Shown: piece after piece, positions 22,692-42,961 of the stretch
How the letters are laid out: the number at the start of each line of letters is the position of its first letter
Numbering within the stretch: the stretch's first letter is position 1
Assembly (NCBI GenBank): GCA_014896235.1
Contig: JADBKU010000015.1
Span: 1-64,000, forward strand
Direction: 5' to 3'
DNA: 64,000 nucleotides
Source of the DNA: a bacterium
GTDB lineage: Bacteria > Desulfobacterota > Binatia > Binatales > Binataceae
Notes under the pieces: model-generated
Databases searched by the model: none
What the model saw: only the letters and a program-made list of their open reading frames with translations
Told to the model about the DNA's origin: nothing
Made by a program: the position numbers and the translations under genes

Positions 22692-22756
22692 CGGAACGCA
22701 ACCGATTCGCGGGAATTGCCGCGATAGAGGAGATATCCACAGTCGAGCGGCGCGTT

Positions 22757-24637
22757 ATGGAGAGCCTCGATCAGGCAGGATCGCTGCGGTCCGAGCAGCT
22801 CCACGGCGGGCGAAGCGGCGACGATTTCGCGGAGCCGCGCGGCGGCTCACTGGCGGCGTTGGCCGCCCTGGTGCGCACGATTGCGCAGGTCGCGCCATGG
22901 CGGTTCGCGTGGACGATCGCGTTGATTACGCTGTTTTCGCTTACCGAAGGCGCCGGCGTGGCGATGCTTTTTCCGACGCTCCAGTTGGCCGGATACAACC
23001 TTGAAAGCCAGGGCAAGGTTGGTCATTACGCGCGGATGGTGGGGAACGCGTTCACCGCCGCCGGATTGCATCCGACCCTGCCGCTGATGCTCAGCTTGTA
23101 TATTTTGGTGATTGCGGCGCGATCGCTGATCGATCGCTTGCGCAATGTATCCGACGCGCAGGTCCATCGGCGCCTCGAGGACGTGATGCGCCGCCGCCTG
23201 TATAAGGCGATCAGCGACGCGAGTTGGCAATTCATCAGTCGCAGCCGAATGTCGGATTTCAATCACGCGCTGACCGCGGAAATGGAGCGAATCACGACCG
23301 CGGCCGCTTTTCTTACGGCGCTGTCCGCCAACCTCTTGATGGGCGCGCTTTACGTGGGCGTCGCGCTGGCGCTGTCCGTGCCGATGACGCTGACGGTAAT
23401 CCTGTTTGGCGGGCTGATGACCGTGGCGCTGTCGCGCGGCACGCGCAGAATCGAGGAGCTGGGCGCGACATTGTCGAGACAGACGGGCCGCATGTATGCG
23501 GCTGCGGGTGATCATCTGCAGGGACTGAAGACCGCGAAAACCTACGATGCCGTGGCGCGCGATTTCGAGCTTTTCTCCGAAGTAAGCCGGCAAATCGCGG
23601 ATACATACATAAACGTGGAGCGGGAACAGGCGACGCTGAGCTCGTGGTTCGAATTCGGATCGGCTCTGGCGCTCGGCGCCGTCCTTTTCGCCGCGCTGGA
23701 GTTGTTCGCGGCGCCGCCCGCGATGATTCTGATCCTGATTCTGCTTTTCGCGCGGCTGATGCCCCGCTTCCAGTCGAGCCATCAGTATTACCGCACGATC
23801 GTTCATGCGCTGCCCGCTTTCACCAACGTATGCGCGATGGAGCAGCGTTGCCGCGCGGCCGCGGAAGCGCCCGGACCGCCGGGCCACAAGCTGATCCTCG
23901 CGAATCAAATCCGCTTGAATCGAGTGTCGTTCGCGTACGGAGCCGGCGTGAAACCGGCGCTTTCGGCGGTCGACATGACCATTCCGGCCGGCCGGATCAC
24001 GGCGATGGTCGGTCCTTCAGGCGCGGGCAAAAGCACGATCGCGGATCTCGTGATGGGATTGCTCGAACCGACGGATGGCGAAATCTCCGTGGACGACGCG
24101 CGCCTCGATTCGGCCACGCGGCGCGGGTGGCGGACTCAACTTGGATATGTCGGTCCCGACACCGCGCTTTTCAATTTAAGCATCCGCGACAACCTGCTTT
24201 GGGCGAGGCCTGACGCGAGCGAAGCCGAATTGACGCAAGCGCTCCGAGCTTCGTCCGCCGAAGAATTCGTACGGGCGCTGCCTGACGGACTGGATACGAT
24301 CGTGGGCGACCGCGGAGCGATGCTGTCGCAGGGCGAACGCCAGCGCCTCGCGATTGCGCGGGCGTTGTTGCGAAAGCCGGCGCTCCTGGTCCTTGACGAA
24401 GCCACCAATAATCTCGATTTTGAAAACGAGGCACGGGTGCTCGGCGGAATCGCCGGCCACGCCCGCGGAATGACCATTTTGATCATCGCGCACCGGCCAT
24501 CGACCATCCGCTGGGCCGATCTGATTTATGTGATTGAAGACGGAAAAGTCGCCGAATCGGGCCGTTGGGAGGATTTGGCATCGAACGGAAGCGGCCGATT
24601 TCGCGCTCTTTGCGTCGCTCAACGGCAGGTCGCGTGA
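22757..24637 (+). CDS. ABC exporter (fused permease-ATPase) of the lasso locus
   Basis: 626 residues from the ATG at 22757; the open frame extends far upstream across the preceding gene in another phase and is not real there. An N-terminal six-helix permease (about residues 40-330) is followed by an ATPase with Walker A GPSGAGKST near 418, signature LSQGERQRLAIARALL near 523 and Walker B LLVLDEATNNLDFE. There is no N-terminal C39 peptidase, so it exports rather than cleaves. By position it is the lasso D protein, giving export and self-immunity. The stop is 28-100 bases before the first PhyH gene. Confidence 0.9.
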   Translation: MESLDQAGSLRSEQLHGGRSGDDFAEPRGGSLAALAALVRTIAQVAPWRFAWTIALITLFSLTEGAGVAMLFPTLQLAGYNLESQGKVGHYARMVGNAFTAAGLHPTLPLMLSLYILVIAARSLIDRLRNVSDAQVHRRLEDVMRRRLYKAISDASWQFISRSRMSDFNHALTAEMERITTAAAFLTALSANLLMGALYVGVALALSVPMTLTVILFGGLMTVALSRGTRRIEELGATLSRQTGRMYAAAGDHLQGLKTAKTYDAVARDFELFSEVSRQIADTYINVEREQATLSSWFEFGSALALGAVLFAALELFAAPPAMILILILLFARLMPRFQSSHQYYRTIVHALPAFTNVCAMEQRCRAAAEAPGPPGHKLILANQIRLNRVSFAYGAGVKPALSAVDMTIPAGRITAMVGPSGAGKSTIADLVMGLLEPTDGEISVDDARLDSATRRGWRTQLGYVGPDTALFNLSIRDNLLWARPDASEAELTQALRASSAEEFVRALPDGLDTIVGDRGAMLSQGERQRLAIARALLRKPALLVLDEATNNLDFENEARVLGGIAGHARGMTILIIAHRPSTIRWADLIYVIEDGKVAESGRWEDLASNGSGRFRALCVAQRQVA

Positions 24638-24737
24638 TGCGTCATAAGTCCAGTAATACGCGACAATGGCAAACCCCTCGATTTGCGCCTCGCGGAATCG
24701 CGGCCAGAGCGCCGGCGAGTGGATAATCGCAGAATCA

Positions 24738-25706
24738 ATGAGGAAAAACCGCGCACGCGATGAACTGCTCGCATCGCTTCATCTCAGCCGCGAAGAATTC
24801 AGCGTTCGCGCCAGGCAGGCGACGGACCCGGATTACTGGCGTTCCCTGTCTCGCGGAATTCCAGTCGATTCATTGAACTATAACCTGAGCGAACCCGCGT
24901 TCAGCCATGATTTGATCGAGGCGTCTCTGCGCAGTCTGAGAGACCATGGCTATTTCCACGCCGGCCCGCTTGTTTCGGAACCGATCGTAAAGCAGATGCG
25001 AGAATGCGTGGAAGCGGTGAAAGCCGCTGGCTGGCCGCCCGTTTTCGCCTTCGTGTACGATCCGTTCTGGGCCGCCGCGCGCACGTCGTTCATATGCCGA
25101 TTTCTTTCGGATTTTCTCGGGGCCGGCTTCGACATAATAATGTCGCGGGTATGGTGTTATTACATCCAGCCGATACGCGGAGCTGGCGGATGGACGCCTC
25201 ATGCGGACGCATACCACGACCATCGGAATCGCATTACTCTGTGGATACCGCTTACCGATGCGACGCTTGACAATGGCTGCATGTATGTAATCCCGAGAGA
25301 CTTGATTGACGATGATCGGACGCCGGCGGAAGAACGCCTGCGCGCGTCTTCGCTGCCGAGCGAGTATTGCCTGCAACTGCTGCATAGCTGCCGGGCGCTG
25401 CCGGCGGCCGCGGGATCGGTTCTCGGATGGGATCCGCGGACCATCCACTGGGGTTCAAAATGCCATGCGCCGGGCGAACCGCGCATCAGCGTCGGATGCG
25501 AGTTCGTGAGCCACGGCGTGATTCCGAAACCCCATCGCCCGGATGAACTGGCGCCGGGCGATCGCGGCGCGCCGCTGCCCGGCTTCATGCGGAGGATTCG
25601 CAACATCGCCCTGTCGATTCGAATTCATCACGCCCGCGACCTTAAAGCGGCGCGCTTTGCGGAGTTGGCGGAGGAATTGATAAAGCAAACCGCCGGCATT
25701 GGCTGA
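24738..25706 (+). CDS. PhyH-type Fe(II)/2-oxoglutarate dioxygenase 1 of the lasso locus
   Basis: 322 residues from the ATG at 24738, chosen because its start then aligns with the second PhyH protein of the locus; an in-frame ATG exists at 24666. The jelly-roll core has the metal triad H-x-D (TPHADAY) with the distal His in RTIHWGS, and the 2OG-binding Arg in GEPRISVG. Blocks shared with the paralogue at 29226 include AGWPPVFA and LWIPLTDATLDNGCMYV. PhyH enzymes hydroxylate unactivated carbons; in a RiPP locus a peptide side chain is the likely substrate. It converges on the cyclase gene. Confidence 0.87.
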   Translation: MRKNRARDELLASLHLSREEFSVRARQATDPDYWRSLSRGIPVDSLNYNLSEPAFSHDLIEASLRSLRDHGYFHAGPLVSEPIVKQMRECVEAVKAAGWPPVFAFVYDPFWAAARTSFICRFLSDFLGAGFDIIMSRVWCYYIQPIRGAGGWTPHADAYHDHRNRITLWIPLTDATLDNGCMYVIPRDLIDDDRTPAEERLRASSLPSEYCLQLLHSCRALPAAAGSVLGWDPRTIHWGSKCHAPGEPRISVGCEFVSHGVIPKPHRPDELAPGDRGAPLPGFMRRIRNIALSIRIHHARDLKAARFAELAEELIKQTAGIG

Positions 25707-25754: not shown

Positions 25755-27635
25755 TCAGCCGAGAACCACGTTGTGCCAAATCTCCATCGCGAGCGAGAGC
25801 CACACCGGCACGCCATAGCCGATTACGCCGCGTTGGTATTCATCGATCAATTTGTTCGCGGCGTTCCTGAGCTTGTTGGAGTTGACCCATCCGCGTCGCG
25901 CGATCGCGAGCGAGCGCCAATCAACCTGATTCTGATTGAATTTGACCGAATCGAGAAAAGGCGTGGCGAAATGTCCTTTGGTGGTCCGCCGACGGATCGG
26001 CTCTGGCAGGATTCCGCACATCGCGTTGCGCAGGATTATTCGATTCACGCCCAGCCGCGTGCGCTGCTCTTCCGGTATAGCCCAGGCGAATTCGACGATG
26101 CGCCGATCCGAAAGAGGATGACGCCCTTCGAGTCCTGTTTCGATCAGATAACGCTCGAGTCGATCCATCGTGACGTGTCGCTCGCCGTCATGAAAAAAAT
26201 TGTAGTAGTCGCGATGGGCGAGCGTCGTTGGCGGAGCGGGCGGAGGTTGCGGATGTAGCCGCTCCTCCAGCGAGATTCTGTGAGCGAAATCCGGTTCGAT
26301 CCAGTTCGGATACGAACGCGCGCGGCCGGTGAGTTCGCGCCTGAGCTGGTTGATCCATTGCGGGAGCAAGGGCAGAAGAGCATCGGCGACGAAGGTTCTC
26401 ACCGGTCCAATATTGAAGTCAGGATCGATCGGACCTCTCAATTCCCGTATCAGCGTGGCCAGCTGTCCCCGTCTGAGCAGGTCCGCGAGACGATACGGAG
26501 ACGCGCTGATCCATTCGTCGCCGCCCTCGCCAGTGAGAATCACCCGGCATCCGTTGGCGGCGGCGGTGCGGCGCAGCTCCATGCCGCATGCGGTGCTTGG
26601 ATATTCGGGGAGGTCGCGATGTTTTCTCACCGATTCCGCCAAGTCGATTCGATCAGGCGCCAAAGGGTCGAACAGATTTGTTTGGATTCCGTACTGTTTG
26701 GCTACCTCCCGTATATAGCCGGACTCGTCCCATGGCTGTCCCGGGAAGACAATCGAATAGGTTTTGAAGTCGAGCGGCGGCAGCTCGCCGCCGCGCGCCA
26801 TCGCCAGCGACGTACAGACGATCGAGGAAGAATCAATTCCGCCGCTCAGATGGGAAGCGACGGGTCCGACCGCGCGCAGCCGGCATCTTAATGCTTCCTT
26901 GAACAGCGCGAGGAAATTCTCGGCGTACTCATGATCGTCGCGAAATCGGATTTCTTTGTCGAAGTTCAGATCGAAGTAGCGGCGCGATACGGTTTTCTCG
27001 CGGCCCACGCGCATCGTGTGCGCCGGCCGCAGGCGGCGGATTGCGGCGTACATGGTTTCATCACAACTCGGGGTGCGATTCGCCAGGATTTCGCCGATCA
27101 TTCCTTCATTCAACCGGCCATCGAACCCCGTGTACGCCAACACTCCTGCGATCTCGGAGGCGCAAACGAACGCTTTGCCGTCGTCGAAGTAATACAACGG
27201 CTTGATCCCCATCGCATCGCGCGCGCACAGCAGGGTTTGCGCACGCGCGTCCCACAACGCCAGCGAAAAATCTCCAAGCAGCTTCGCGACGCACGCTTCG
27301 CCCCAGCATTGGTAGCTGCGCAGCACCACCTCGGCGTCGGCGGCGTCGCGCGCGCGCAGGCCTTGCGCCTCGAGCAGCGATCGCAGTTCCGCGCCGTTGT
27401 CGATCCGCCCGTCTAAAATCAGTATGAGCGCGCCCGTTTCGTCGCGATGCGGCTGAATTTCCTCGAGGGACTCCGGCGTAGTGTGAAACATGCGATGGCC
27501 GAGCGCCACATCGCCGCCATGCCAGATGCGACAGCCGTCCGGCCCGCGATGGGCCATCGCGTCGAGCATCCGGGTGAACGATTCGGCGGCGACCGGACGC
27601 CCGTCGCGATTGAAGACCGCGGCTAACCCGCTCAT
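25755..27635 (-). CDS. Asparagine-synthetase-like lasso macrolactam synthetase (C protein)
   Basis: 626 residues. An N-terminal glutaminase-like domain begins MSGLAAVFNRDG: the catalytic Cys2 of true AsnB is replaced by Ser, so it cannot release ammonia from glutamine. The AsnB-like half has the PP-loop SHLSGGIDSSSIVC near residue 261 and the LTGEGGDEWISASPYRL motif. This combination is the hallmark of lasso cyclases (McjC type), which adenylate an Asp/Glu side chain and join it to the N-terminal amine. It lies 31 bases after the PqqD-like gene and is co-directional with the methyltransferase. Confidence 0.9.
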   Translation of the reverse strand: MSGLAAVFNRDGRPVAAESFTRMLDAMAHRGPDGCRIWHGGDVALGHRMFHTTPESLEEIQPHRDETGALILILDGRIDNGAELRSLLEAQGLRARDAADAEVVLRSYQCWGEACVAKLLGDFSLALWDARAQTLLCARDAMGIKPLYYFDDGKAFVCASEIAGVLAYTGFDGRLNEGMIGEILANRTPSCDETMYAAIRRLRPAHTMRVGREKTVSRRYFDLNFDKEIRFRDDHEYAENFLALFKEALRCRLRAVGPVASHLSGGIDSSSIVCTSLAMARGGELPPLDFKTYSIVFPGQPWDESGYIREVAKQYGIQTNLFDPLAPDRIDLAESVRKHRDLPEYPSTACGMELRRTAAANGCRVILTGEGGDEWISASPYRLADLLRRGQLATLIRELRGPIDPDFNIGPVRTFVADALLPLLPQWINQLRRELTGRARSYPNWIEPDFAHRISLEERLHPQPPPAPPTTLAHRDYYNFFHDGERHVTMDRLERYLIETGLEGRHPLSDRRIVEFAWAIPEEQRTRLGVNRIILRNAMCGILPEPIRRRTTKGHFATPFLDSVKFNQNQVDWRSLAIARRGWVNSNKLRNAANKLIDEYQRGVIGYGVPVWLSLAMEIWHNVVLG

Positions 27636-27666: not shown

Positions 27667-27945
27667 TCAGACCGATTCGTCCGGCGTGACGATGAGCATT
27701 CCTTTTGCGGTCAAGTCACTCACCATCTTGTCGAAGTCATTGCGCAGCACAGCCGGATCGGCGTCATCGTACAACGCCTGCAATTCTTCGAGTATCCGGT
27801 CTGACGCGCCATGCTCGGCGATCAGTCGCCAGATATCGCTCCCTGCGCCCGAGAATCCGAAATAATGATTGGTGGCGAGATCGAGGATTACGATCTCGTC
27901 GCCCAGCTCGCGCCAAATCACGTCTTCAGAAATTGCTATCTTCAT
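27667..27945 (-). CDS. PqqD-family leader-binding protein (lasso B1, RRE)
   Basis: 92 residues with the whole PqqD fold: the strands EDVIWRELGDEIVILDLATNHYFGFSG, then helices SDIWRLIAEHGASDRILEELQALYDD and a C-terminal helix FDKMVSDLTAKGMLI. PqqD-like domains (RiPP recognition elements) bind the precursor leader, with the conserved YxxPxL segment lying along the beta sheet. The start overlaps the methyltransferase 3' end by 20 bases. In standard lasso clusters it acts with a B2 protease; no B2 gene is seen in this window. Confidence 0.9.
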   Translation of the reverse strand: MKIAISEDVIWRELGDEIVILDLATNHYFGFSGAGSDIWRLIAEHGASDRILEELQALYDDADPAVLRNDFDKMVSDLTAKGMLIVTPDESV

Positions 27946-29077
27946 GGACGTACGGAACCATCACTTCGGCGACGAAAGCCGCCGCCTCGGCGGACGACGG
28001 GAAAAGATTCGCGTGTTGGCGAAGCACCTCATTTTCGATCTCGCGCAGAGTCCGCCGGCCGTCGCATAGCGCGAACACCGTGCGGCGCGCTTCGCCCCAA
28101 TCGTTCAGCGTTGGCACGAAATCCGGCGCCGCCTTGCGCAGATCTTCGGGGCACAGCAGCATGCCGCGGAAAGTCGAATGACTAAAGCGCGTGCGCGGGC
28201 GCGCGTCATCGCCGATGATTTCGACAGTCCACGAAATCAACGACTCACGCGGGACGATCGTAATCGCAACCTCGAAGCGCTCATTGGCGTGCACCGTCGT
28301 CGGATCGAGCGGAAGAAAAAAGGCGGGCCGCAGAATCGCTTTTTCCGCGAACGGCGAATTCGTCATTCTCACCGACGGCGACAATTCCGCATCGAACCAT
28401 CCGGCCAAACCATGCAGCGTGGCGTCTCGGCTGAAGGCGGCGGTGACTTTATCAGCGATGCGAGATTCGGAATCGTGCGTGAGGTCGACTGAGAGGATGA
28501 CCTGGGGCGCGGCTATCGCTTGATTTGATCTGAAAGTTCTCGCATAGCCGGTGTTGACCGCAGCCGTGTACGCCGGCGTCATATCGAAACCGGCGCACGG
28601 CCGCTTCCAAAACTCGCAGTCCGCCCACGTTTCCGGCGCTTCCAAAGGCGCGACGCATAAATCGAAGCGTGCGGGAATAATTCCGCGGCCCGGTTTGAGC
28701 AGCCGATGGCGCGCGTCGCTCAGAAATTCGATTATACCCGCGTTGAAGCCGAAGTAGCCAAGCTGGTCGCATAAGACCACGTCGGCCGGCTCGGGCAATG
28801 AGACCCGCGTGGAAAAGCCCTTGATGCACACGACCCGGTCGGCAAAGCCGTTGGCGGCGAAAATTTCCCGTTCCAACTGGGTGAGGCCGCAGTTGTCGAT
28901 GGCGTAAACGCGGCGCGCGCCCGCGCGGCAGGCGAGCAATCCAAGAATTCCCGAGCCAGAGCCAAGATCGATCACTACGTCGCCCGGCTTCACGATCTCG
29001 GCGATCGCCCGGCTGAACGCGTCAATTCGGTTCGGATCGCTGAGATATTCGCGATGTTCGTCAAGGATTTGAAACAA
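27926..29077 (-). CDS. PRMT-like SAM methyltransferase with C-terminal PqqD-like tail
   Basis: 383 residues from a TTG at 29077 (MFQILDEHREYL), the usual opening of this group; no ATG is better placed. The Rossmann SAM site is VIDLGSGSGILGLLACRAGA (about residues 35-54). The PRMT double-E loop is altered to CDQLGYFGFNAG, so arginine methylation is not assured. The last 60 residues (about 320-383: EARRTVFALCDGRRTLREIE, then a helical end) look like the helical half of a PqqD domain, which could dock the leader. Its 3' end overlaps the PqqD gene, so co-translation is likely. Target residue unknown; the core peptide has two Arg and one Lys. Confidence 0.82.
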   Translation of the reverse strand: MFQILDEHREYLSDPNRIDAFSRAIAEIVKPGDVVIDLGSGSGILGLLACRAGARRVYAIDNCGLTQLEREIFAANGFADRVVCIKGFSTRVSLPEPADVVLCDQLGYFGFNAGIIEFLSDARHRLLKPGRGIIPARFDLCVAPLEAPETWADCEFWKRPCAGFDMTPAYTAAVNTGYARTFRSNQAIAAPQVILSVDLTHDSESRIADKVTAAFSRDATLHGLAGWFDAELSPSVRMTNSPFAEKAILRPAFFLPLDPTTVHANERFEVAITIVPRESLISWTVEIIGDDARPRTRFSHSTFRGMLLCPEDLRKAAPDFVPTLNDWGEARRTVFALCDGRRTLREIENEVLRQHANLFPSSAEAAAFVAEVMVPYVHEDSNF

Positions 29078-29225: not shown

Positions 29226-30212
29226 ATGGAACGTGATAGCGTAACGCCGCCGTCCCGAGCCGCGCGAAAGTTGCTCGCGCGGCTGGATTTAAGCCGCGAC
29301 GAAATTGACGCCCGCTTGGCCTTGGCGCTGGATTCCGGATACTGGAAGTCGCTTTACCCCGCTTTTTCAGTCAACGATGAATCCAGCGCGCTGCCGCGCG
29401 CGGACGCCCTCACAGCGTCGCAGTACGAGCGGCTGGCGGACCATCTCACCCGCCGCGGCTATTTTCACGCGGACTCGGTGCTCGAATCCGAGACTATCGA
29501 CGCCATGCGCGGTTGCATCGAAGCCGTCCGAAGCGCCGGATGGCCGCCGGTCTTCGCCTATGTTTACGATCAGTTTTGGACGATTTGGCGCGTGGCGCCG
29601 ATCAAGCAGATGGTGCAGGCCGGGCTTGGGGAAGGGTATCGGCTGATTTCGCATCCATGGTGCCATTACGTAAATCCGGTCGCCGGAGCCAGCGGATGGC
29701 CGCCGCATGTTGACGGCAACCTGGCAAATCGGCTGTCAGTCTGGATTCCGTTGACCGACGCGACTCTCGACAACGGATGCATCTATGTGGTGCCTGGCGA
29801 TCAGAATTTCGCCCGCATCGGCGAGCTGCGCGAACTAAAATCCGCGACTAATCTTCAATTGAGAGAACTGATGCAGCGTGGCCGCGCCCTGCCGGCGTCC
29901 GCGGGCGCGATCATGGGCTGGCATTTCCGGATTCTCCATTGGGGCTCCGTCGCCAGCGGTGGGGGCCATCCCCGCATCAGCACCGTGATGGAATTCATCA
30001 AAGCGGAAGAAGCTGGTTTGCCGAGCGAAATGCCGCTTTTCGATCTGGATCGCGGATTGCCGCCGCTGCTCCAGCGATTGTTCGCAATCGGCAGGGCGAT
30101 TAATCATTACAAGCGTTTTGAGCTCCGAATGCGGCGTTATGCCGGATTGGGCCGTGCACTGATGCGCGTCGGCGATGCAGCCAATCGGGAATCGGCCGCG
30201 ACGGCGACCTAA
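29226..30212 (+). CDS. PhyH-type Fe(II)/2-oxoglutarate dioxygenase 2 of the lasso locus
   Basis: 328 residues. It is a paralogue of the protein at 24738, with the same order of blocks: LLARLDLSRDEID, GYFHADSV, AGWPPVFAYVYDQFW, then the iron triad WPPHVDGN and RILHWGS and the 2OG Arg in HPRIST. The sequences are moderately divergent (Asp-loop and lid segments differ), so two distinct hydroxylation sites or substrates are plausible. It is divergent from the methyltransferase (148-base gap) and overlaps the 3' end of the kinase gene by four bases. Confidence 0.87.
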   Translation: MERDSVTPPSRAARKLLARLDLSRDEIDARLALALDSGYWKSLYPAFSVNDESSALPRADALTASQYERLADHLTRRGYFHADSVLESETIDAMRGCIEAVRSAGWPPVFAYVYDQFWTIWRVAPIKQMVQAGLGEGYRLISHPWCHYVNPVAGASGWPPHVDGNLANRLSVWIPLTDATLDNGCIYVVPGDQNFARIGELRELKSATNLQLRELMQRGRALPASAGAIMGWHFRILHWGSVASGGGHPRISTVMEFIKAEEAGLPSEMPLFDLDRGLPPLLQRLFAIGRAINHYKRFELRMRRYAGLGRALMRVGDAANRESAATAT

Positions 30213-31216
30213 TCGCGCAATTCGTCCTCGATCATTTCGCGGACGGCGTCCAACGCGCGCAGATCGTTGGGCAGCCAAAGCCGCTTCATGGGAATATGGT
30301 TCGCGGCATATTGAGCAAAATCGAACTCGCGCGCCAATAATTCAGGATCCGTACTGTCCAGCCGCATTCCGTAATTGATCAATTCCATGCACGCATCGCG
30401 CCGCGACAAAGCTTCCATGCGGGGCTTCGCGCTCGAAGCCCCGCCAGCCGTTTCAATCCGCGACAGAAAGAAAATCCGGCTCACCGGATGCGATTGGATC
30501 GCCGCTCCCCATTTCGGCAGGTCCAGGCGCAAGCGCCGTTTCGCGGTGTAATCCGCCACCGGCGCGGCGTTTGTTCCGTCAGGTAGAAGGGCCTCTAACG
30601 AATCTTCGCGCAACTTGACGTGCGGATGCGACGGCGACGCGACCACAGTCTCGCGGCGCTCCAGGATCAGGAAGTCGTCGGTCAGGACAGCGTATCCGGC
30701 TAGCGACAGACTTGTGGCAAGCGTCGACTTGCCGATTCCGGAATCGCCCGCAAACGCACACGCTCCGCGTTCGGTTGCGACCGCCGACGCATGTAGCACG
30801 CATTTGCCGCGCAACGCCAGAATCAGCGGCAGGACGTAGTCAACCAGCAAGGCGCGGAGCGTTAGATCGGATACGTCGTCCGACCGGCTTTGGCATACGA
30901 GTTCCCGGCCGGCGCGATCCACTTCAAAATCGGCCAGATCGTGATAGCGAAGCAGATAACCTTTGACCGTTTTCGCGCGCGACGCCCATCGCGTTCCGTC
31001 GGCCAAGTCCAGGTTGATGAACCAGCTCGGCGGCGATGTTCCACGCTTCGCCGCGGCATCCTGCAGGCGGATCACCAGCGGCTCGCTGTCTTCGGTCAAC
31101 GCCCGATCGCAAGGCGTGAGCTCTGGGAGCGAAGTGTCACTTAAAATGCTAAGCTCACCGAGCCGGTACGCGTAGCGTCCGCCACCTGCGACAATTCCTT
31201 TGTATGGTGAAGCCAC
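30209..31216 (-). CDS. HPr-kinase-like peptide kinase of the lasso locus
   Basis: 335 residues from a GTG at 31216. The C-terminal half is HprK/P-like: Walker A FAGDSGIGKSTLATSL near residue 155, TDDFLILE, the H-x-x-x-K-L-R segment SHPHVKLREDSLEALLPDG, and a C-terminal helical tail. Lasso clusters of the paeninodin type encode such kinases, which phosphorylate a Ser of the precursor. Candidate acceptors in the local precursor are S42, S46, S47 and S52 (penultimate, not terminal). It follows the precursor gene by 133 bases on the same strand. Confidence 0.85.
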   Translation of the reverse strand: MASPYKGIVAGGGRYAYRLGELSILSDTSLPELTPCDRALTEDSEPLVIRLQDAAAKRGTSPPSWFINLDLADGTRWASRAKTVKGYLLRYHDLADFEVDRAGRELVCQSRSDDVSDLTLRALLVDYVLPLILALRGKCVLHASAVATERGACAFAGDSGIGKSTLATSLSLAGYAVLTDDFLILERRETVVASPSHPHVKLREDSLEALLPDGTNAAPVADYTAKRRLRLDLPKWGAAIQSHPVSRIFFLSRIETAGGASSAKPRMEALSRRDACMELINYGMRLDSTDPELLAREFDFAQYAANHIPMKRLWLPNDLRALDAVREMIEDELRD

Positions 31217-31349: not shown

Positions 31350-31511
31350 TCAGCCGCTTCCTCTCATATTGCTGCTGTCAGGCAAACTGCGCGCTTTTGG
31401 AGTGGCCGTGATCTTTGTCACGCTCCCGTAATCGACAAGAGCAGGCGATACGTACGCCTTTTTCTTCTTGGCAGGCTTCGTCTCGGGTTCGACGGATGGT
31501 TGTTTTCGCAT
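31350..31511 (-). CDS. Lasso-peptide precursor (A gene), 53 residues
   Basis: Too short to stand out as an ORF but well supported. ATG at 31511, with AGGAG eight bases upstream, opens 53 codons to a TGA at 31350-31352. The leader has a Lys-rich stretch (KPAKKKK) then Y20-x2-P23-x-L25-x3-G29-x5-T35, exactly the lasso leader motif YxxPxLxxxG...Tx. Cleavage after T35-A36 would leave a 17-residue core TPKARSLPDSSNMRGSG, with D45 as core residue 9. A 9-membered T1-D9 macrolactam would fit the family, leaving an 8-residue tail. Thr as residue 1 is unusual (Gly is commonest). It is co-directional with the kinase, at the outer edge of the locus. Confidence 0.8.
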   Translation of the reverse strand: MRKQPSVEPETKPAKKKKAYVSPALVDYGSVTKITATPKARSLPDSSNMRGSG

Positions 31512-31939
31512 TGGCCAACTCCTGAATCAGCTAACTGTTTAGCCCGCTTTCGTTTTGTCCGATGCTGTTTTTGCTACTTACGCGAGTTCGACAGCTTGCC
31601 AACAACGCCGGGTGCGCTTTGTCGCTTGGCAGCGTGAACTATTACATCGTTTATTAGCCCAGTCAAGCTGGAAAAGAGCTTCAACACGCGATGTCGGATG
31701 CGCTGGAGTAACGGCTCGACAGGCATTTAGGCGGCGTTCCCCGATTCCCAAGCTGATCGATTGCCGGCAACGGATGCGACAACGTTGCAGCGGAGGAAAT
31801 CGGCGCCAACGTCCGAAATACAACCGCTGGCGCAGCAAGGATCAAAATGTCCGCGAGCAAGCCGGCTATATTTGAACCTTCCGACGGCTGACACGGCCGA
31901 TCCGTTGGTCGTGATTTTCTCTCCGTTTAAAGCCGTCCG
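31512..31939. other. Intergenic region upstream of the lasso precursor
   Basis: 428 bases, A+T-richer than the flanks, between the 3' end of the cobalamin operon and the lasso precursor start. I see no convincing gene: the open frame on the plus strand at 31555-31875 has no ribosome site and a random-looking Arg/Ser-rich product. The region holds a candidate promoter for the precursor (31638-31666, minus). No clear terminator hairpin for the cobalamin operon was found. Confidence 0.6.
31638..31666 (-). promoter_or_regulatory. Candidate sigma-70 promoter of the lasso precursor
   Basis: Read on the minus strand: TTGACT (-35, five of six), 17-base spacer, AATAGT (-10, four of six). It would give a 5' leader of about 120 bases before the precursor ATG at 31511. 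Confidence 0.35.
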
Positions 31940-33349
31940 TCAGCGAGCGGCGGATTCACTTGCTTTTTTCGTTCGGCGGGCGCGAACGCACGCCTCGACC
32001 ATCGCTTCCGCCATGCTGGGATTCGACGCCCAGTGTGCGTGCACATAGGAGGCGATGACGTTGTTTAGCCTGAAACCTTCTTCGAGCGCGGCGCCGTCGC
32101 GCCGGCGTCGAATCGCCAAGGCCGGCGCCATCTTCGACGACAATAATTCGAGCCTTGAATATCGAAACTGATGGCCGCGGAAAGCGCTTCCGGCGGGACC
32201 TAAGATGGAATCGTTCAGCGTACGCGCTTCCACGTAGCCAAGCGCCTGCAGACGTTCGCACATAATGGTTCGCGCGGGCACGACGCCGCACATCGGATAA
32301 ACCCGCTTATCCAGCGTCTGGAGTTCGGAACACAGATACATCAATCCACCGCATTCGGCGTGGATTACGCCGTCCGCGGCGGCAAACTCGGCGATCTGCA
32401 GTCTCATCGTGGCATTTCGTTCAAGTTCGGCCGCGTGCGCCTCGGGATAGCCGCCGCCCAGGTAAAGGCCATCGACGGCCGGCAATCGAACATCGTGTAT
32501 CGGCGAGAAGCGAATCAGCCGTGCGCCCGCATTCTCAAGCCGCGCAAGATTGTCCTCATAGTAAAAATGGAAGGCTTCGTCGTAGGCGACGCCGATGACG
32601 CATTTACTTTTGCGCCGGGCTGCCGCTGCGACGGGCGTAGCGGTTTGCAGAGGCCGGGCTTTTGCCGCGAGCGAGATTATTTCGTCCAGATCACACCATT
32701 CGCCGACCAGTTCGCCCCACCGCGAGAGCCGCGCGTCAGGAACCGCGGACTCGTCGGCGGTTCGCAGACCGAGATGCCGCTCCGGGAATCGCGCCGACGC
32801 GTCTTTCGGCAGCCCGCCAATTACCGGCGGGCGATCCGACGCTTCCCGCAAAAGTCCCAGATGCCCTTTGCTTCCGACGCGATTGCAGATTAACCCAGCG
32901 ATCCGCAGTTCGCGGTCGAAGTCGGCAAAGCCGCGCCCGACGGCCGCGATTGAACGGGCCATCCCGGAGGCGTCCACCACCAACAGCACCGGCGCATCGA
33001 GCCATTTGGCGATTTCCGCGGTCGATCCGCTCTGGTCGGTCGCCGACGCGCCGTCAAACAAGCCCATGACGCCTTCGATGATCGCGATATCGGCGTCAAC
33101 CGAAGCCCGCACGAAAGTGGCGATGACCGCCTCGCGACCCATCATCCAACCGTCGAGGTTGTGTGAAACAGAACCGGCGGCGCGCGCGTGATAAGTCGGA
33201 TCCAGATAGTCCGGTCCGCATTTGAAGATCGCGACCCTCAAGCCGCGCGAGCGAAGCGCCCGTACAAGCCCCACCGTAAAAGTGGTTTTGCCAACGCCGC
33301 TCGACGTGCCCGCGACAACGAGGCGCGGTATTTCGTGAGCCGGCTTCAT
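31940..33349 (-). CDS. cbiA: Cobyrinate a,c-diamide synthase
   Basis: 469 residues from the ATG at 33349, which overlaps the stop of cobA-hemD (ATGA); the open frame extends upstream in the neighbour. An N-terminal P-loop dethiobiotin-synthetase-like domain starts RLVVAGTSSGVGKTTFTVGL. The C-terminal glutamine amidotransferase domain has VIHAECGGLMYL with the catalytic Cys and, later, a His in GHQFRYSRLE. It amidates the a and c side chains of cobyrinate using ATP and Gln. It is the last gene of the 13-gene cobalamin operon. Confidence 0.93.
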   Translation of the reverse strand: MKPAHEIPRLVVAGTSSGVGKTTFTVGLVRALRSRGLRVAIFKCGPDYLDPTYHARAAGSVSHNLDGWMMGREAVIATFVRASVDADIAIIEGVMGLFDGASATDQSGSTAEIAKWLDAPVLLVVDASGMARSIAAVGRGFADFDRELRIAGLICNRVGSKGHLGLLREASDRPPVIGGLPKDASARFPERHLGLRTADESAVPDARLSRWGELVGEWCDLDEIISLAAKARPLQTATPVAAAARRKSKCVIGVAYDEAFHFYYEDNLARLENAGARLIRFSPIHDVRLPAVDGLYLGGGYPEAHAAELERNATMRLQIAEFAAADGVIHAECGGLMYLCSELQTLDKRVYPMCGVVPARTIMCERLQALGYVEARTLNDSILGPAGSAFRGHQFRYSRLELLSSKMAPALAIRRRRDGAALEEGFRLNNVIASYVHAHWASNPSMAEAMVEACVRARRTKKASESAAR

Positions 33350-34842
33350 TTCACTCCATCGCCCGTCCGTTCGCGCTCGAAATCGCCTTCGCCGGAGACG
33401 CCAAGGATCTTGCGCACGGCCGCAACAATCGAGTCGATGTTGTCGGCGTCGCACCGTTTCACATTGGCGGCTCCGAGGGCCTTCGCCGCAGCTTCGGTCA
33501 CGGGGCCGATCGCGATCATCGGTATCTCCACGAGCGAATGCCCATCCGCGCCCTCCAGCAACAGGCGCGCCGCGCTGGAACTGGGTAGTACGATCAACTC
33601 GGGAGTCTCAATAAATTTCGCCGCGTACTCGTACGATTGCCGATAAACCGGCGCCTCTTCCACCAACGCGCCAGCGGCTTCGAGGTCGGCTTTCAGGTTG
33701 GGCCGTCCTTGCGTTGAGGCGACCAGAAGCAGGCGCTTGCCCGGAAAGACGGACGCGGCTTTGGCGGTCGCCTCGCGGCACGCGCCGTCGAGTTCGAGAA
33801 ATGCTGAGACGCCGTTTTTCTTCAGGGCGGCGGCAGCGTCGCGGCCAACGGCGATAACTCGAGTTCCGTTCGCGCAGGACGCCCCGGAATCAATTGCGCG
33901 AAGCAGCCTCGGCGCCATATTGGCGCCCACCGCACAGCCGAACACGATGGCGTCGTAGGGAATCTTCTGAAGGGCGCGCTCCAGCGCGGCGAGGCAGACT
34001 GTTTCCTGAATCGAAACCTTGGGTCTTTCCAGCACCATGGCGCCCATGGCGCGCAGTCGCGCCGCGATTTGCGACGGTCCGGGCCGCGCACGCGCGACCA
34101 GCAGGCGGCGTCCGTGCAACGGCGCCTTCTCGAACCAGCCGATTCGTTCCCGCAGCCGCGTCGCGTCGCCGACGATCACAAGCGCCGGATCGGAGTTGCA
34201 GCCGGGCTGAACCCGGCTGGCCAATTCCGCAAGCGTACCTGTAATTACCGTCTGTCTCGGAGTGGTCGCTGCGGCGATATACGCCGCCGGCGTGGAAGGA
34301 GCGTGCCCCCTCTGGAGCAGCCGCTGGATGTTTTCCGGAAGCCGGCGGGCGGCCATGTACAACACCACGGTTTCATGCGCGCGACCGCCAGGCTCCGCAC
34401 GACGGCCGGTCGTGAGAGTGACCCGCGACGCATGATGGCGGTGGGTCAGAGGGATGCCGGCATAGGCGGCCGCGCCCAGAGCGGCGGACACGCCCGGCAC
34501 GATTTCAAACGGAATTCCAGCGTTTGCCAGTTCCTCGGCCTCCTCCGCGCCACGACCGAAGATCAACGGGTCGCCGGACTTCAACCGCACCACCACGCGC
34601 CCCGCCCGTGCGCGCTCGACCACGAGCGGATGGAGACGATAGTCGATCTTTCCGCGACCATGCCGGCGGCCGACGGCGAGCAGTTCGGCGTCGGATGAAA
34701 CGAGTGAGAGTATCTCCGAAGATACCAGTTCGTCATGGGCGACAACTTCGGCCGACCGAATCAATTCGAACGCTCGAATGGTCAGCAGCCCCGGATCGCC
34801 CGGACCCGCCCCGACCAGATATACGATGCCCTGCGCGGACAT
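33346..34842 (-). CDS. cobA-hemD: Uroporphyrinogen-III C-methyltransferase / uroporphyrinogen-III synthase fusion (CobA-HemD)
   Basis: 498 residues from the ATG at 34842. The N-terminal half (about residues 1-250) is SUMT: IVYLVGAGPGDPGLLTIRA, RLKSGDPLIFGRGAEEAE, GIPFEIVPGVSAALGAAAYAG. The C-terminal half (about 255-490) is HemD: GRRLLVARARPGPSQIAARL, FGCAVGANMAPRLL and a final PMIAIGPVTEAAAKALG. Together they cyclise hydroxymethylbilane to uroporphyrinogen III and methylate it to precorrin-2. It lies 4 bases after cobM and overlaps cbiA by four. Confidence 0.93.
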   Translation of the reverse strand: MSAQGIVYLVGAGPGDPGLLTIRAFELIRSAEVVAHDELVSSEILSLVSSDAELLAVGRRHGRGKIDYRLHPLVVERARAGRVVVRLKSGDPLIFGRGAEEAEELANAGIPFEIVPGVSAALGAAAYAGIPLTHRHHASRVTLTTGRRAEPGGRAHETVVLYMAARRLPENIQRLLQRGHAPSTPAAYIAAATTPRQTVITGTLAELASRVQPGCNSDPALVIVGDATRLRERIGWFEKAPLHGRRLLVARARPGPSQIAARLRAMGAMVLERPKVSIQETVCLAALERALQKIPYDAIVFGCAVGANMAPRLLRAIDSGASCANGTRVIAVGRDAAAALKKNGVSAFLELDGACREATAKAASVFPGKRLLLVASTQGRPNLKADLEAAGALVEEAPVYRQSYEYAAKFIETPELIVLPSSSAARLLLEGADGHSLVEIPMIAIGPVTEAAAKALGAANVKRCDADNIDSIVAAVRKILGVSGEGDFERERTGDGVK

Positions 34843-34846
34843 TGGC

Positions 34847-35614
34847 CTACCCCGCTTTGATCTTCGCCTTGCGAAAACGATGGCTGAAGTCGGGCGCGTA
34901 CAGACGCGAGTCGGCAAAATCGTTCGCGGTGAGCGTGCGGCCCACGATGATTATCGATTGGCTCTTGATCCCGGCTTCTCTCACCCGGACCAAAATGTCT
35001 CCGAGCGTTCCGCGCACGATGTTCTGGTCCGGGCAGGCGGCCTTGTGTACCACGGCGACCGGACAGTCCGCGCCGTATTCAGGAATCAGCGCTTCGCAAA
35101 CCTCGCGCAACAACGTGATGCTGAGGAAAAGAACCATGGTGGCGTGATGGCGCGCGAGGTCGCGGAGTTTTTCGCCATCCGGCATCGGGGTGCGTCCTTC
35201 GGCGCGCGTCAAAATCACCGTCTGGCTGAGTTCCGGCAGAGTCAGTTCACGGCGCAGCACCGCGGCCGCCGCGCTGAAGGAGGAGACGCCGGGCACAACC
35301 TCGTATCCGATCCCCAGTTGATCCATCCGCCGCATCTGCTCCGCGGTCGAGCCGAAAATGAGCGGATCGCCGGTGTGAACTCTTGCAACATCCTGATCGG
35401 CGTCCCGAGCCTCAACGATCACCGCGATGATTTCATCCAGCGTCATCCCTGAGGAGTCGATAACCCTGGCGTCGGCTCGGGCCATCGCGATCGCGTCGCG
35501 CGGCACCAGCGATCCGGTATAGAGCACTACCGGGCAGGACGAGATCAGTTCGGCCGCGCGCAGCGTCAGCAGCCTGGGGTCTCCGGGGCCGGCGCCGATG
35601 ATAAAGACCTTCAT
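34847..35614 (-). CDS. cobM: (Cobalt-)precorrin-4 C11-methyltransferase
   Basis: 255 residues, with the tetrapyrrole methylase motifs VFIIGAGPGDPRLLTLRA, RVHTGDPLIFGSTAEQM and YEVVPGVSSFSAAAAVLRREL. The segment SGMTLDEI and the LPELSQTVILTRAEGRTPMP region are typical of CbiF/CobM. It methylates C11 with SAM. It sits 8 bases after the small unknown gene and 4 before cobA-hemD, inside the operon. Confidence 0.94.
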   Translation of the reverse strand: MKVFIIGAGPGDPRLLTLRAAELISSCPVVLYTGSLVPRDAIAMARADARVIDSSGMTLDEIIAVIVEARDADQDVARVHTGDPLIFGSTAEQMRRMDQLGIGYEVVPGVSSFSAAAAVLRRELTLPELSQTVILTRAEGRTPMPDGEKLRDLARHHATMVLFLSITLLREVCEALIPEYGADCPVAVVHKAACPDQNIVRGTLGDILVRVREAGIKSQSIIIVGRTLTANDFADSRLYAPDFSHRFRKAKIKAG

Positions 35615-35622
35615 CGTTTCTC

Positions 35623-36036
35623 CTACAGACAGCGCAGAACCGTATCCCGGACGATGTTCCAGATCGGCGCCGGCATCTCGCCGAGCCAGCGCACATCCAC
35701 TGGTTGATCGAGGGGAAGCTCATCTTGTCCGTCCGGATCCATCAGGAGACGCCACAGCCGCTCGCTCACCGAGCCATTGCGTTCGATCAGCAGGCGCTCA
35801 GCCAGCGTGGCGGCCAGTTGTTCGCCTTCCAGATCGAGCGTCAGGCAAGGGGGGGATATCTCGACCGTGCGCCGCGCCGACAAGGGAACATAAGGCCGCT
35901 TGAGCGCGTCGATCGCTTCCGGCGGATCGAAGCCCGCAGCCTCGAAATCGCATGGTTCCTTGGTATTTCCGATCAGAAAAAATCTGCCGCCGGTCTCGGC
36001 GAGAATCGCGCCGGCCAGTCGTCCCGCCCGGGCCAT
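35623..36036 (-). CDS. Small unknown protein of the cobalamin operon
   Basis: 137 residues. The ATG at 36036 overlaps the cobJ stop (TGATG); a GTG one codon upstream is also possible. It has a Gly-rich start (AGRLAGAILAETGGRFFLIGN), a mid-segment with EAIDALKRPYVPLSARRTVEI and a Trp-rich C-terminal part. I do not recognise the family. It resembles neither CobE/CbiG-C nor CobK. Its tight coupling between cobJ and cobM suggests a role in ring synthesis, but this is only context. Confidence 0.75.
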   Translation of the reverse strand: MARAGRLAGAILAETGGRFFLIGNTKEPCDFEAAGFDPPEAIDALKRPYVPLSARRTVEISPPCLTLDLEGEQLAATLAERLLIERNGSVSERLWRLLMDPDGQDELPLDQPVDVRWLGEMPAPIWNIVRDTVLRCL

Positions 36037-36881
36037 CACTCAACCTCCGCCTGATCGGACGCCGCCTCCAGCACCAAAGAACGGCCCGGCCGTTGACCCG
36101 GCAGAGGCTCGCCGTCCGATGTGTATTTATTCGCATAGCCGCGCGGCGTAACCATGTATCCCTCGAAGACAAAGGTATTGCTCGAACCGACGATTACCGT
36201 GGTGAGCATCCCGATTTCATAGTCGAGAAAATGGTCCAGGTCGGTGAGCACGGCTTGCTGAAGTTTCCGATACGCGCTCTTTACGAGCGCAACCGGCGTC
36301 GTCGGCTGGCGATACCTGCCGATAATTGAATGTGCTTCGACGATCTGGCGCGTGCGCCGGCCGCTCGCCGGATTGTACAGCCCGATCACGAAATCGGCGG
36401 ACGCGGCGGCCTCGATGCGGCGGGCGATCACCGGCCATGGCGTCAGCAGGTCCGAGAGCGAGATGGCGCAGAAGTCGTGAACCAGCGGCGCGCCCATCAG
36501 CGAAGCGCATGAACTGAGCGCGGTGACGCCAGGTATGATGCGCAGTTCGGGCGAATCGCCGCGCTTCCATCCGATATCGCGCAGCACCTCGAACACCAGC
36601 CCGGCCATCCCGTAAACGCCCGCGTCGCCCGACGAAATCAAGGCGACCCTGGCGCCTGCGCGCGCGCGTTCGACCGCCGCCCGCGCCCTGCCAATCTCCT
36701 CGGTCATGCCGGTCCGCACGATCTCTTTGCCGCGAATCAAGTCGGCGACGAGCTTGATATAGGTCGTGTAGCCGACGATCAGCTCGGCGTCGGCGATCGC
36801 GCGAGTCGCGGCGGGAGTCGCGTGGTCGTGCGCTCCCGGCCCGATTCCGACCACGTAAAGAACGCCTTTCGCTTCAGACAT
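36036..36881 (-). CDS. cobJ: (Cobalt-)precorrin-3 C17-methyltransferase
   Basis: 281 residues from the ATG at 36881; an in-frame ATG lies two codons upstream. Motifs: VLYVVGIGPGAHDHATPAA, VALISSGDAGVYGMAGLVFE and LRIIPGVTALSSCASLMGAP, then HDFCAISLSDLLTPW, the CobJ/CbiH block, and LYNPASGRRTRQI. It methylates C17 and contracts the ring. With CbiG and CbiD beside it, the CbiH-type anaerobic reaction is more likely than the CobG-dependent one. It overlaps the cbiG 3' end. Confidence 0.93.
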   Translation of the reverse strand: MSEAKGVLYVVGIGPGAHDHATPAATRAIADAELIVGYTTYIKLVADLIRGKEIVRTGMTEEIGRARAAVERARAGARVALISSGDAGVYGMAGLVFEVLRDIGWKRGDSPELRIIPGVTALSSCASLMGAPLVHDFCAISLSDLLTPWPVIARRIEAAASADFVIGLYNPASGRRTRQIVEAHSIIGRYRQPTTPVALVKSAYRKLQQAVLTDLDHFLDYEIGMLTTVIVGSSNTFVFEGYMVTPRGYANKYTSDGEPLPGQRPGRSLVLEAASDQAEVE

Positions 36882-38037
36882 CGGCAACCTCCATCGGTCG
36901 CTTGGCGAACGGAATCCGCGCGATCGCGAGCGTCATCGAGCGTCCGGCTCCCGGCTCGGTATAGACCTGTTTGGGGACGAGCAGCCGCTCGGCGCCGGCG
37001 CCGAGCAACGCCGCGGGCTCGGCCACGCCGCGCGTGCCGACGTAACGCTTGACGGTTTCGGAAGGATTCTCAATTCCATGGACCGCGTCGAGTTCCTCGG
37101 CTGAGTGGATTTCGAGCGGCCATCCATGGCGCTCGGCAAGGGCCACGATCGCGGGCTCGTCACGCTTTTTATCGATCGTGACGAGTCGCTTCACTGATTT
37201 GAGCGACAGCCGATTGGCGTCGAACGCCTTCGCGACGCCCCGTTCCACCAACTCCGCTGGCGTATTTTTGTCGCAGCCGATTCCCAGCGCCAGGCTTCTG
37301 GGGCGATAGATGACCGCGCTTTTCCAGTGCTCCGGATGGGTTTCGCGAAAATCGCGATCCGAAGCGACAAGCAATATCTCAAATGCATGCGGATCGACGC
37401 CGTCCAGCGCCGTTGCGTAACGCACCCCGGGCGGCAACGATCGATCCAATGGCCACCAGTCGGGCTCTCCGGTCTCCTGGACGAACATGACCGGCGCGGC
37501 GTTAACCACGGCCGCACATCCGCGAGTCACGTTGCGATCGGGATCGTCGAGCGTCCAGCCGAAATCGCGGCCAAGGATGTCGACCGTCAGCGTGCCGATC
37601 GCGTCGGAGGCGGTTGTGACGACCGCCTGAGCGTCCAGCGCCTTCGCGATCCGTTCCGTGAAAACGTTGCCACGCCCGACATGGCCGGAAAGGACGCAGA
37701 TGGCGAAGCGCGCGGCGTCGTCCACGCACACCACGGCCGGATCCGTCTTTTTGTCCCGCATGAGCGGCGCGATCATCCGCACGACCGCGCCGACGCTGAC
37801 GATGAATGCGTGGCAATCGTAGGCCGGAAAGGTTTCGGCGAGCGTGGGTCCCATCGGCAGTTTGAGCGGCAGGACATTCGCGAGTCGGGGCGCGAGCGCC
37901 GCCGCCGACAGCAGTTTCTCGGAAACGTAAACGTCAGCGTCGCGGAAGGACTCCGCCAGTCGCCCGGCGATTTCCAGTCCGTGGCGCGTGATGGCGTAGA
38001 TTGCGAAGGATTTGCGCGGCGCTCCCACTTCGCTCAC
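36874..38037 (-). CDS. cbiG: Cobalt-precorrin-5A hydrolase
   Basis: 387 residues from a GTG at 38037 that overlaps the cobI stop (GTGA). The N-terminal half has FAIYAITRHGLEIAGRL, then HAFIVSVGAVVRMIAPLMRDKKTDPAVVCVDD and CVLSGHVGRGN, the CbiG signature that opens the lactone ring. The C-terminal half (LALGIGCDKNTPAELVE) is the CobE-like part. CbiG acts in the anaerobic route, losing acetaldehyde, so it marks pathway type. It overlaps cobJ at the 3' end. Confidence 0.92.
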   Translation of the reverse strand: MSEVGAPRKSFAIYAITRHGLEIAGRLAESFRDADVYVSEKLLSAAALAPRLANVLPLKLPMGPTLAETFPAYDCHAFIVSVGAVVRMIAPLMRDKKTDPAVVCVDDAARFAICVLSGHVGRGNVFTERIAKALDAQAVVTTASDAIGTLTVDILGRDFGWTLDDPDRNVTRGCAAVVNAAPVMFVQETGEPDWWPLDRSLPPGVRYATALDGVDPHAFEILLVASDRDFRETHPEHWKSAVIYRPRSLALGIGCDKNTPAELVERGVAKAFDANRLSLKSVKRLVTIDKKRDEPAIVALAERHGWPLEIHSAEELDAVHGIENPSETVKRYVGTRGVAEPAALLGAGAERLLVPKQVYTEPGAGRSMTLAIARIPFAKRPMEVADV

Positions 38038-38804
38038 ACCTCCGACAACGCGGCTTGGGCCGAAACGTCGCCGGCCAGCACGCCGCTGCGTTCCCTGCGC
38101 GCGACCACCACCATCGCGAAGCAATCGCCGCGTTCGGTGCGGACCGCTCGCAGATCGGTCGCGACCTTCTGCTCCGGCATCGTCGCTTTCGCGACATAAG
38201 CAGCCTTGTGCAGCAGCCCCGTGCGTTCGAGCGCCTCGACGACCTTCGGCATCTCCGAGCCAATTTTCATGAGAATAGTCGTGTCGAAAGCGTTCAGAAT
38301 GGCGACCAGGTCTTCAACGCCGTAGTTCGCCGGAATGATTGCGATTCGCTCCATCCCGTCCGCGAGCGGCGCGCCGAGCACCGCAGGCACGGCCGTTACC
38401 GACGACACTCCCGGAATCACTTCGACCTGAACGCCGGGCCATCGGCGCTGCGCTTCGCGATGCAGGTATCCAAATGTGCTGTAAAGTGAAGGGTCGCCTT
38501 CGGTGGCGAAGGCGACGGAGCGGCCGTTTTCGAGCCGCTCGCCGATTCTGGCGAACGCGACGTCCCATGCCCGGCGCAGGCGCGCTGGCTCTTTGCTCAT
38601 CGGAAAGGTCAAAAACAGCCGTTCCTGATCGCTCCTCTTGCCGACCACCGGTTCGATTATCCGCCAGGCCATCGACGCGCCGTAATCCGAACCGCGCGGC
38701 AGCGCGATAACGTCGGCGCGCTTGAGCGTTTCGACCGCGCGCAGCGTCAGCAGGTCCGGCGCGCCGGGGCCGACGCCCACGCCATAGAGCGCTCCGTATT
38801 TCAT
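38034..38804 (-). CDS. cobI: (Cobalt-)precorrin-2 C20-methyltransferase
   Basis: 256 residues. Tetrapyrrole methylase motifs: LYGVGVGPGAPDLLTLRAVE, then FATEGDPSLYSTFGYL, and VQVEVIPGVSSVTAVPAVL, and the CbiL/CobI-specific MKIGSEMPKVVEALE. It methylates C20 with SAM. The ATG overlaps the cobL stop and the stop overlaps cbiG, as usual in this operon. Confidence 0.94.
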   Translation of the reverse strand: MKYGALYGVGVGPGAPDLLTLRAVETLKRADVIALPRGSDYGASMAWRIIEPVVGKRSDQERLFLTFPMSKEPARLRRAWDVAFARIGERLENGRSVAFATEGDPSLYSTFGYLHREAQRRWPGVQVEVIPGVSSVTAVPAVLGAPLADGMERIAIIPANYGVEDLVAILNAFDTTILMKIGSEMPKVVEALERTGLLHKAAYVAKATMPEQKVATDLRAVRTERGDCFAMVVVARRERSGVLAGDVSAQAALSEV

Positions 38805-40057: not shown

Positions 40058-40704
40058 AGCTCAGCCTCCTTGGCAAGCAGGAGAAGCGCGTGAATTATCG
40101 CAACCGCAATCGCGCTGCCGCCTTTGCGTCCGCGCGCGACCACGTACGGAACGTCAACGTCAAGGATGGCCTCTTTGGACTCGGCCGCCGACACGAAACC
40201 GACCGGTACGCCGATTACCAGCGCCGGGCGGACTCCTTCTTTCTCCACCAGCCGGGCGATCTCAAGCAGCGCGGTGGGCGCGTTGCCGATCGCGACGATC
40301 GCGCCGTCGAGGAGGTTCTGACGCTGCGCCTTGCGCATCGCCTCGATCGCGCGGGTGCTGTTGTTGGCTTTCGCCGTGGCGATTACGTCGTCGTCGGAGA
40401 TGAAGCAATGCGTCGAACAGCCGTAAAATTTCAGACGATCCTCGTTGAGGCCAGCGGTAATCATCTTGACGTCCACCAGGATCGGCGCGCCGGCGCGCAG
40501 GGCGGCTATGCCCGCCCGCACTGCATCCGGATGAAAACGCATCGAATCCTTGAACTCAAAATCCGCGGTTGCGTGAATCACCCGACGGACAATCTGCCAT
40601 TGCGCAGGGTCGAATTCATGGCGACCGGCCTCGCGATCGATAATCGCGAAACTGCCATCCTCGATATTGCGGCCCAGCGCCGTCATTTGACGCATGTCGC
40701 TCAT
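40054..40704 (-). CDS. cobH: (Cobalt-)precorrin-8 methylmutase
   Basis: 216 residues from the ATG at 40704, which overlaps the cbiD stop; the frame is open further up to 41583 but that part is only antisense phase of cbiD. Motifs: RRVIHATADFEFKDSMRFH with the catalytic His, ILVDVKMITAGL, AIVAIGNAPTALLEIARL and VIGVPVGFVSAAESKE. It moves the C11 methyl to C12, giving (hydrogeno/cobalt) cobyrinate. Confidence 0.95.
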   Translation of the reverse strand: MSDMRQMTALGRNIEDGSFAIIDREAGRHEFDPAQWQIVRRVIHATADFEFKDSMRFHPDAVRAGIAALRAGAPILVDVKMITAGLNEDRLKFYGCSTHCFISDDDVIATAKANNSTRAIEAMRKAQRQNLLDGAIVAIGNAPTALLEIARLVEKEGVRPALVIGVPVGFVSAAESKEAILDVDVPYVVARGRKGGSAIAVAIIHALLLLAKEAEL

Positions 40705-41825: not shown

Positions 41826-41840
41826 GACCAAGCCGCGATC

Positions 41841-42572: not shown

Positions 42573-42574
42573 TT

Positions 42575-42949: not shown

Positions 42950-42961
42950 TTCATTTCGCCT

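Follow-up and report, generated by a model that had tools for sequence, protein, structure and literature searches.

Does a short open reading frame lying within a cluster of peptide-tailoring genes in a Binatota genome encode the precursor of a lasso peptide, and which enzymes would mature it when the locus itself carries no leader peptidase? To address this question we analysed a 64-kb stretch of DNA (the window, 64,000 nt) from genome G000 together with related genomes, among which G003 is the closest relative and G003 and G006 belong to the same genus. The features on which the analysis rests are the following (window coordinates unless a contig is given).

31350-31511, minus strand: predicted lasso precursor gene (A), 53 aa, defined by translation, leader pattern, conservation and dN/dS
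31519-31523, minus strand: AGGAG ribosome-binding site, 7 nt spacer to the ATG at 31511
31404-31511, minus strand: predicted leader peptide, residues 1-36 (Y20-P23-L25-G29-T35-A36), conserved in 12 precursors
31353-31403, minus strand: predicted core peptide TPKARSLPDSSNMRGSG, T1 codon 31401-31403, D9 codon 31377-31379
30209-31216, minus strand: HprK-like kinase of the paeninodin tailoring type, H-K-D-D motif
29226-30212, plus strand: PhyH-type Fe/2OG oxygenase 2 (H161xD163, H238)
27926-29077, minus strand: PRMT-fold methyltransferase lacking the canonical double-Glu motif
27667-27945, minus strand: stand-alone PqqD/RRE protein (PqqD2), TbiB1 being its best solved relative
25755-27635, minus strand: asparagine-synthetase-like lasso cyclase (LasC), assigned by the lasso cyclase model
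24666-25706, plus strand: PhyH-type Fe/2OG oxygenase 1 (H179xD181, H261)
22700-24637, plus strand: ABC exporter (approximate start) for which no C39 peptidase domain was reported
21477-22691, plus strand: NTP_transf_5 nucleotidyltransferase, as in pseudomycoidin-type clusters
G000 contig C35, 6043-6802 (L005:6043-6802): orphan lasso B1 and B2 genes next to an RND transporter

The first-pass annotation had described a 53-codon minus-strand frame at 31350-31511, and translation reproduced it exactly as MRKQPSVEPETKPAKKKKAYVSPALVDYGSVTKITATPKARSLPDSSNMRGSG, 53 codons followed by a stop. It had also placed AGGAG eight bases before the ATG; the motif is there, and is present in G003 and G006 as well, but the spacer is one nucleotide shorter. 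The leader pattern that it had proposed, Y-x2-P-x-L-x3-G-x5-T-x, was matched residue for residue (Y20-x2-P23-x-L25-x3-G29-x5-T35-A36). Being so small, and with a leader scoring 17.7 bits against NCBIfam lasso_leader_L3, just below the curated cut-off of 19 (18.2 bits in a six-frame search of the genome), the frame might be a chance ORF with no role. Against this, the strict form Y..P.L...G.....T after a start codon occurred once in the window, whereas 400 first-order Markov simulations averaged 0.02 chance occurrences per 64 kb, the whole gene gave dN/dS values of 0.32 against G003 and 0.14 against G006, and both the ribosome-binding site and the position upstream of the HprK-like kinase were kept in these two genomes. 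The leader was also the top lasso-leader match genome-wide. We therefore regard a chance origin as extremely improbable, and 31350-31511 is almost certainly a real gene encoding a lasso-peptide precursor.

Comparison with relatives yielded the profile expected of such a precursor. Residues Y20, P23, L25, Y28 and G29 were invariant in 12 of 12 aligned precursors and T35 nearly so, giving a leader with the [Y/W]xxPx[hydrophobic] RRE motif of lasso precursors and a Thr at -2. By the Thr(-2) rule, cleavage is predicted after A36. The Asp announced at core position 9 is residue D45, within the core 7-9 interval where lasso precursors carry Asp or Glu. This acidic ring acceptor was conserved among relatives at core 8 or 9, as D9 in G003, G006, G034, G015 and G036 and as D8 or E8 in most others, and the leader pattern together with an acidic ring residue recurred in about 30 related clusters. 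Lack of conservation of the Y-P-L-G-T pattern and of D9 had been set in advance as grounds for abandoning the lasso reading, which thus survived the comparison. Between the window and G003, 5 of the 36 leader codons had changed, only one of them altering the amino acid, and 7 of the 17 core codons had changed, six of them with replacement, while T1, P2, K3, P8 and D9 stayed the same. Slow leader and fast core divergence is usual for RiPP precursors. The extreme C-terminus also varied: the window precursor ends GSG-stop where that of G006 ends GSCL-stop, and other relatives end in CL, GG, IG, GP and others.

The Thr at core position 1 had been flagged as unusual, and it is: the first residues named as experimentally observed in lasso peptides are Gly, Cys, Ser, Ala and others, plus Asn, and Thr is absent from them (PMC12670498). 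Nonetheless, the Thr(-2) rule yielded Thr1 also in G003, G006, G034, G015, L127, L130, L136, L142 and L146, relatives from several phyla, and this recurrence argues that Thr1 is not a sign of misprediction. Metanodin, a lasso peptide from a soil metagenome, likewise begins with an unusual residue, and standard annotation had missed its precursor; it differs in having Asn1, in coming from a different organism group, and in having been refactored as A, B and C genes with no split (PMC12670498).

The genes around the precursor form four units, A-HprK (minus, 31511 to 30209), PhyH2 (plus), methyltransferase-PqqD-LasC (minus, 29077 to 25755) and NTP_transf_5-ABC-PhyH1 (plus, 21477 to 25706). LasC scored 462.7 bits with the lasso cyclase model NF033535, just under its cut-off of 525, and has the traits of a lasso cyclase, with Ser2 at the place of the glutaminase Cys and SGGIDSS as its ATP loop. 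Residues 4-81 of PqqD2 matched TbiB1 (E 5e-8), as expected of the RRE (B1) protein of a lasso system. In the kinase, H142, K163, D180 and D181 were invariant, and both PhyH proteins contained HxD and a distal His. All genes examined (A, PqqD2, LasC, methyltransferase, HprK, both PhyH, B1 and B2) showed dN/dS of 0.10-0.32 against G003, with 0.18 for the methyltransferase, indicating that the locus is not decaying. The cluster is bordered on one side by the copper-resistance genes for CopB and a multicopper oxidase (18432-21181) and on the other by a long corrin ring (cobalamin) synthesis operon on the minus strand (31940-44155).

Except for B2, this gene set equals that of paeninodin/pseudomycoidin-type clusters (A, C, B1, B2, HprK-like kinase, nucleotidyltransferase, ABC), and it shares with them the His-Lys-Asp-Asp signature of the kinase and an NTP_transf_5 protein. 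Unlike those clusters, it has a PRMT-like methyltransferase, two PhyH oxygenases and Thr1, and no B2 in the locus. The paeninodin kinase phosphorylates a C-terminal Ser (PMC9266682); the window precursor lacks this residue.

No B2 (PF13471) of the kind found within lasso clusters was detected in the 64-kb window. We also considered the ABC transporter as leader peptidase, since the transporter of cochonodin is described as having this double role (as cited in PMC10885120), and rejected it on finding that Pfam assigns it ABC and membrane domains and no peptidase. The single good PF13471 match of G000 is on contig C35, next to another PqqD protein (B1). This orphan B2 scored 101 bits with NCBIfam lasso_biosyn_B2 (cut-off 33) and keeps Cys88 and His123. 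A single LasC-type match (E up to 1e-30) was obtained in G000, as was a single B2 above the family cut-off, and G003 likewise has one of each, on contigs C15 and C44; judged from contig ends, the distance between the two loci is at least about 27 kb in G000 and, in G003, at least about 40 kb. The cluster is split, with the B2 enzyme present in the genome. Adjacency of B2 to a lasso cluster is usual and not obligatory. The remote B1, like PqqD2, matched the TbiB1-type lasso RRE structures (PDB 5V1U/5V1V), so that, in contrast to the TbiB1 system, G000 has two separate RREs, the first next to LasC and the other next to B2. Because the peptidase is missing from the locus while a second B1 and the only B2 are on another contig, PqqD2 may not be the sole or the actual leader-binding partner in cleavage.

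Synteny and trees revealed where the remote pair came from. The RND-B1-B2 arrangement of G000 and G003 corresponds by synteny to the first part of RND-B1-B2-LasC-HprK-NTP-ABC in G002, G004 and G005 (in G004 HtrA lies downstream); since this second cluster is intact in the latter three genomes, its LasC half was most simply lost in G000 and G003. In the B2 tree the orphan B2 fell within the canonical clade of the genus (support 100/100), and in a quick LasC tree the window LasC grouped with those of G006 and G007, separate from the canonical LasC clade. Synteny and trees thus agree that the cyclase and protease halves derive from different clusters, and the orphan B1-B2 is apparently what survives of a second lasso cluster that has lost its cyclase half. 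The remnant is still constrained (dN/dS against G003 of 0.22 for B1 and 0.30 for B2). A search with the leader pattern and a leader profile found no precursor near it, and the pair could serve some other, unrecognised precursor. The canonical RND-B1-B2-LasC-HprK-NTP-ABC clusters L045 (G001), L046 (G005), L049 (G002) and L050 (G004) likewise have no recognisable precursor. Elsewhere, B2 and LasC are linked in at least 12 other genomes of the family; B2 is also on a different contig in G008, and G031, G036 and G037 display the other split, with B1-B2-ABC remote from LasC-A-HprK-NTP (in G037 the LasC half was seen only as LasC-PqqD at a contig edge). For split or trans-encoded lasso peptidases we found no precedent in the titles and abstracts searched, a coverage that omits most subscription journals.

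We consider it likely that A is the precursor for a split, hybrid lasso pathway that combines the remote B1-B2 with the LasC and tailoring genes of the window, and we infer a lasso topology, cleavage in trans and tailoring. An RRE would hold the Y-x2-P-x-L segment of the leader, PqqD2 for tailoring and/or cyclisation and the distant B1 for cleavage, and the tailoring enzymes would work on the leader-bearing precursor. The remote B1-B2 would then cleave after T35-A36, LasC would adenylate Asp9 and close the ring onto the Thr1 amino group around the threaded tail, this tail would probably be held by the conserved Met13-Arg/Lys14 as plug, and the ABC protein would export the product. For the unmodified 17-residue T1-D9 lasso the computed [M+H]+ is 1742.86, from a neutral mass of 1741.853, and [M+2H]2+ is 871.934; the linear core weighs 18.011 more.

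The main weakness of cleavage in trans lies in G006, which has the same locus and in whose 96%-complete assembly no B2 was found, suggesting that cleavage may not need the orphan B2. A generic host protease might instead remove the leader, or LasC might use a pre-trimmed peptide, the remote B1-B2 being an unrelated survivor. Out-of-cluster host proteases are known for other RiPPs (PMC10885120), and for pseudomycoidin, formation in vivo has been reported in the absence of both leader and leader peptidase (Zyubko 2019, as cited in PMC13381572). Nevertheless, in G000 and G003 the B1-B2 pair is still intact and under constraint despite the loss of its own cyclase, and the complementary split exists in other genomes of the family, for which reason we judge this explanation unlikely. 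The absence of B2 from the locus would also suit a linear or branched RiPP, phosphorylated, methylated or hydroxylated and with no lasso fold, all the more as the linear polyphosphorylated peptides (LPPs) have in common with the window a kinase, a nucleotidyltransferase, an RRE and YxxPx[VL] leaders (PMC13381572). LPP clusters, however, have no macrolactam cyclase, whereas here the precursor lies next to a conserved lasso cyclase and the ring position keeps Asp or Glu, which leaves a non-lasso product improbable.

The methyltransferase has the fold of PRMT1, PRMT6 and CARM1, with three further C-terminal helices predicted at lower confidence; Foldseek aligns it with PRMT6 at E 4e-27, and by sequence it matches CARM1 at E 6e-24. 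It differs from these enzymes at the double-Glu motif, where the alignments place Asp at the first position and Ala at the second. Because this motif is missing and several cores of the methyltransferase group contain no Arg, arginine methylation should not be taken for granted. An RRE (PqqD-like) domain at its C-terminus was considered and discarded, the profile comparison giving a probability of just 0.6%. We tentatively propose, as a possibility somewhat short of an even chance, that reciprocal loss between two lasso clusters created the hybrid pathway and that its product is a Thr1-Asp9 lasso bearing at least one modification new to lasso peptides, introduced by the PRMT-fold methyltransferase and/or the two PhyH oxygenases.

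The methyltransferase marks a kinase-containing lasso subgroup in Rokubacteria, Nitrospirota, Acidobacteria, Thermoleophilaceae and Binatota, with the order B1-B2-LasC-A-MT-HprK contiguous in most loci. Precursors ending in Cys-Leu, very frequent in L127-L146 and L153 (Rokubacteria, Nitrospirota, Acidobacteria, Thermoleophilaceae), were present in 18 of 27 loci with the methyltransferase vs 0 of 7 without it (P = 0.002, Fisher test, counted by hand and taking no account of relatedness). The window and G003 precursors do not have this ending, and none of the methyltransferase-group precursors read had a C-terminal Ser. One acidobacterial locus contains three tandem precursors with near-identical leaders between LasC and the methyltransferase (L145:9331-9984). 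Separately, a single ORF of G013 (L116:9295-9804, minus strand) joins a PqqD domain, a lasso-like leader (NRPYAPPRLVAYASVAQLTV) and a Lys-rich tail; it adjoins B2, HprK and an NTP-transferase with no cyclase within 19 kb, and may represent a cyclase-free RiPP with a built-in RRE. The combination of lasso, arginine methyltransferase and PqqD had no precedent in the titles and abstracts searched, most subscription journals lying outside that coverage.

The peptide class itself is known; the separation of cyclase and protease between what is left of two clusters, and likewise the methyltransferase subgroup, are without precedent in the literature searched, which is incomplete, and no paper there joins lasso peptides with Binatota. 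The locus extends lasso peptides to this uncultured lineage and indicates that cyclase and protease are separable in a genome and recombinable between clusters, an arrangement that searches demanding an adjacent cyclase and protease would miss. It also offers a natural test case for the specificity of RRE/leader recognition in vivo. Beyond the window, clusters that pair a kinase with a PRMT-like methyltransferase occur in Rokubacteria, Nitrospirota, Acidobacteria, Actinomycetota and Binatota. Their precursors often have Thr1 and a Cys-Leu tail, and together these clusters resemble a lasso subgroup still to be characterised, from which new tailoring chemistry might come.
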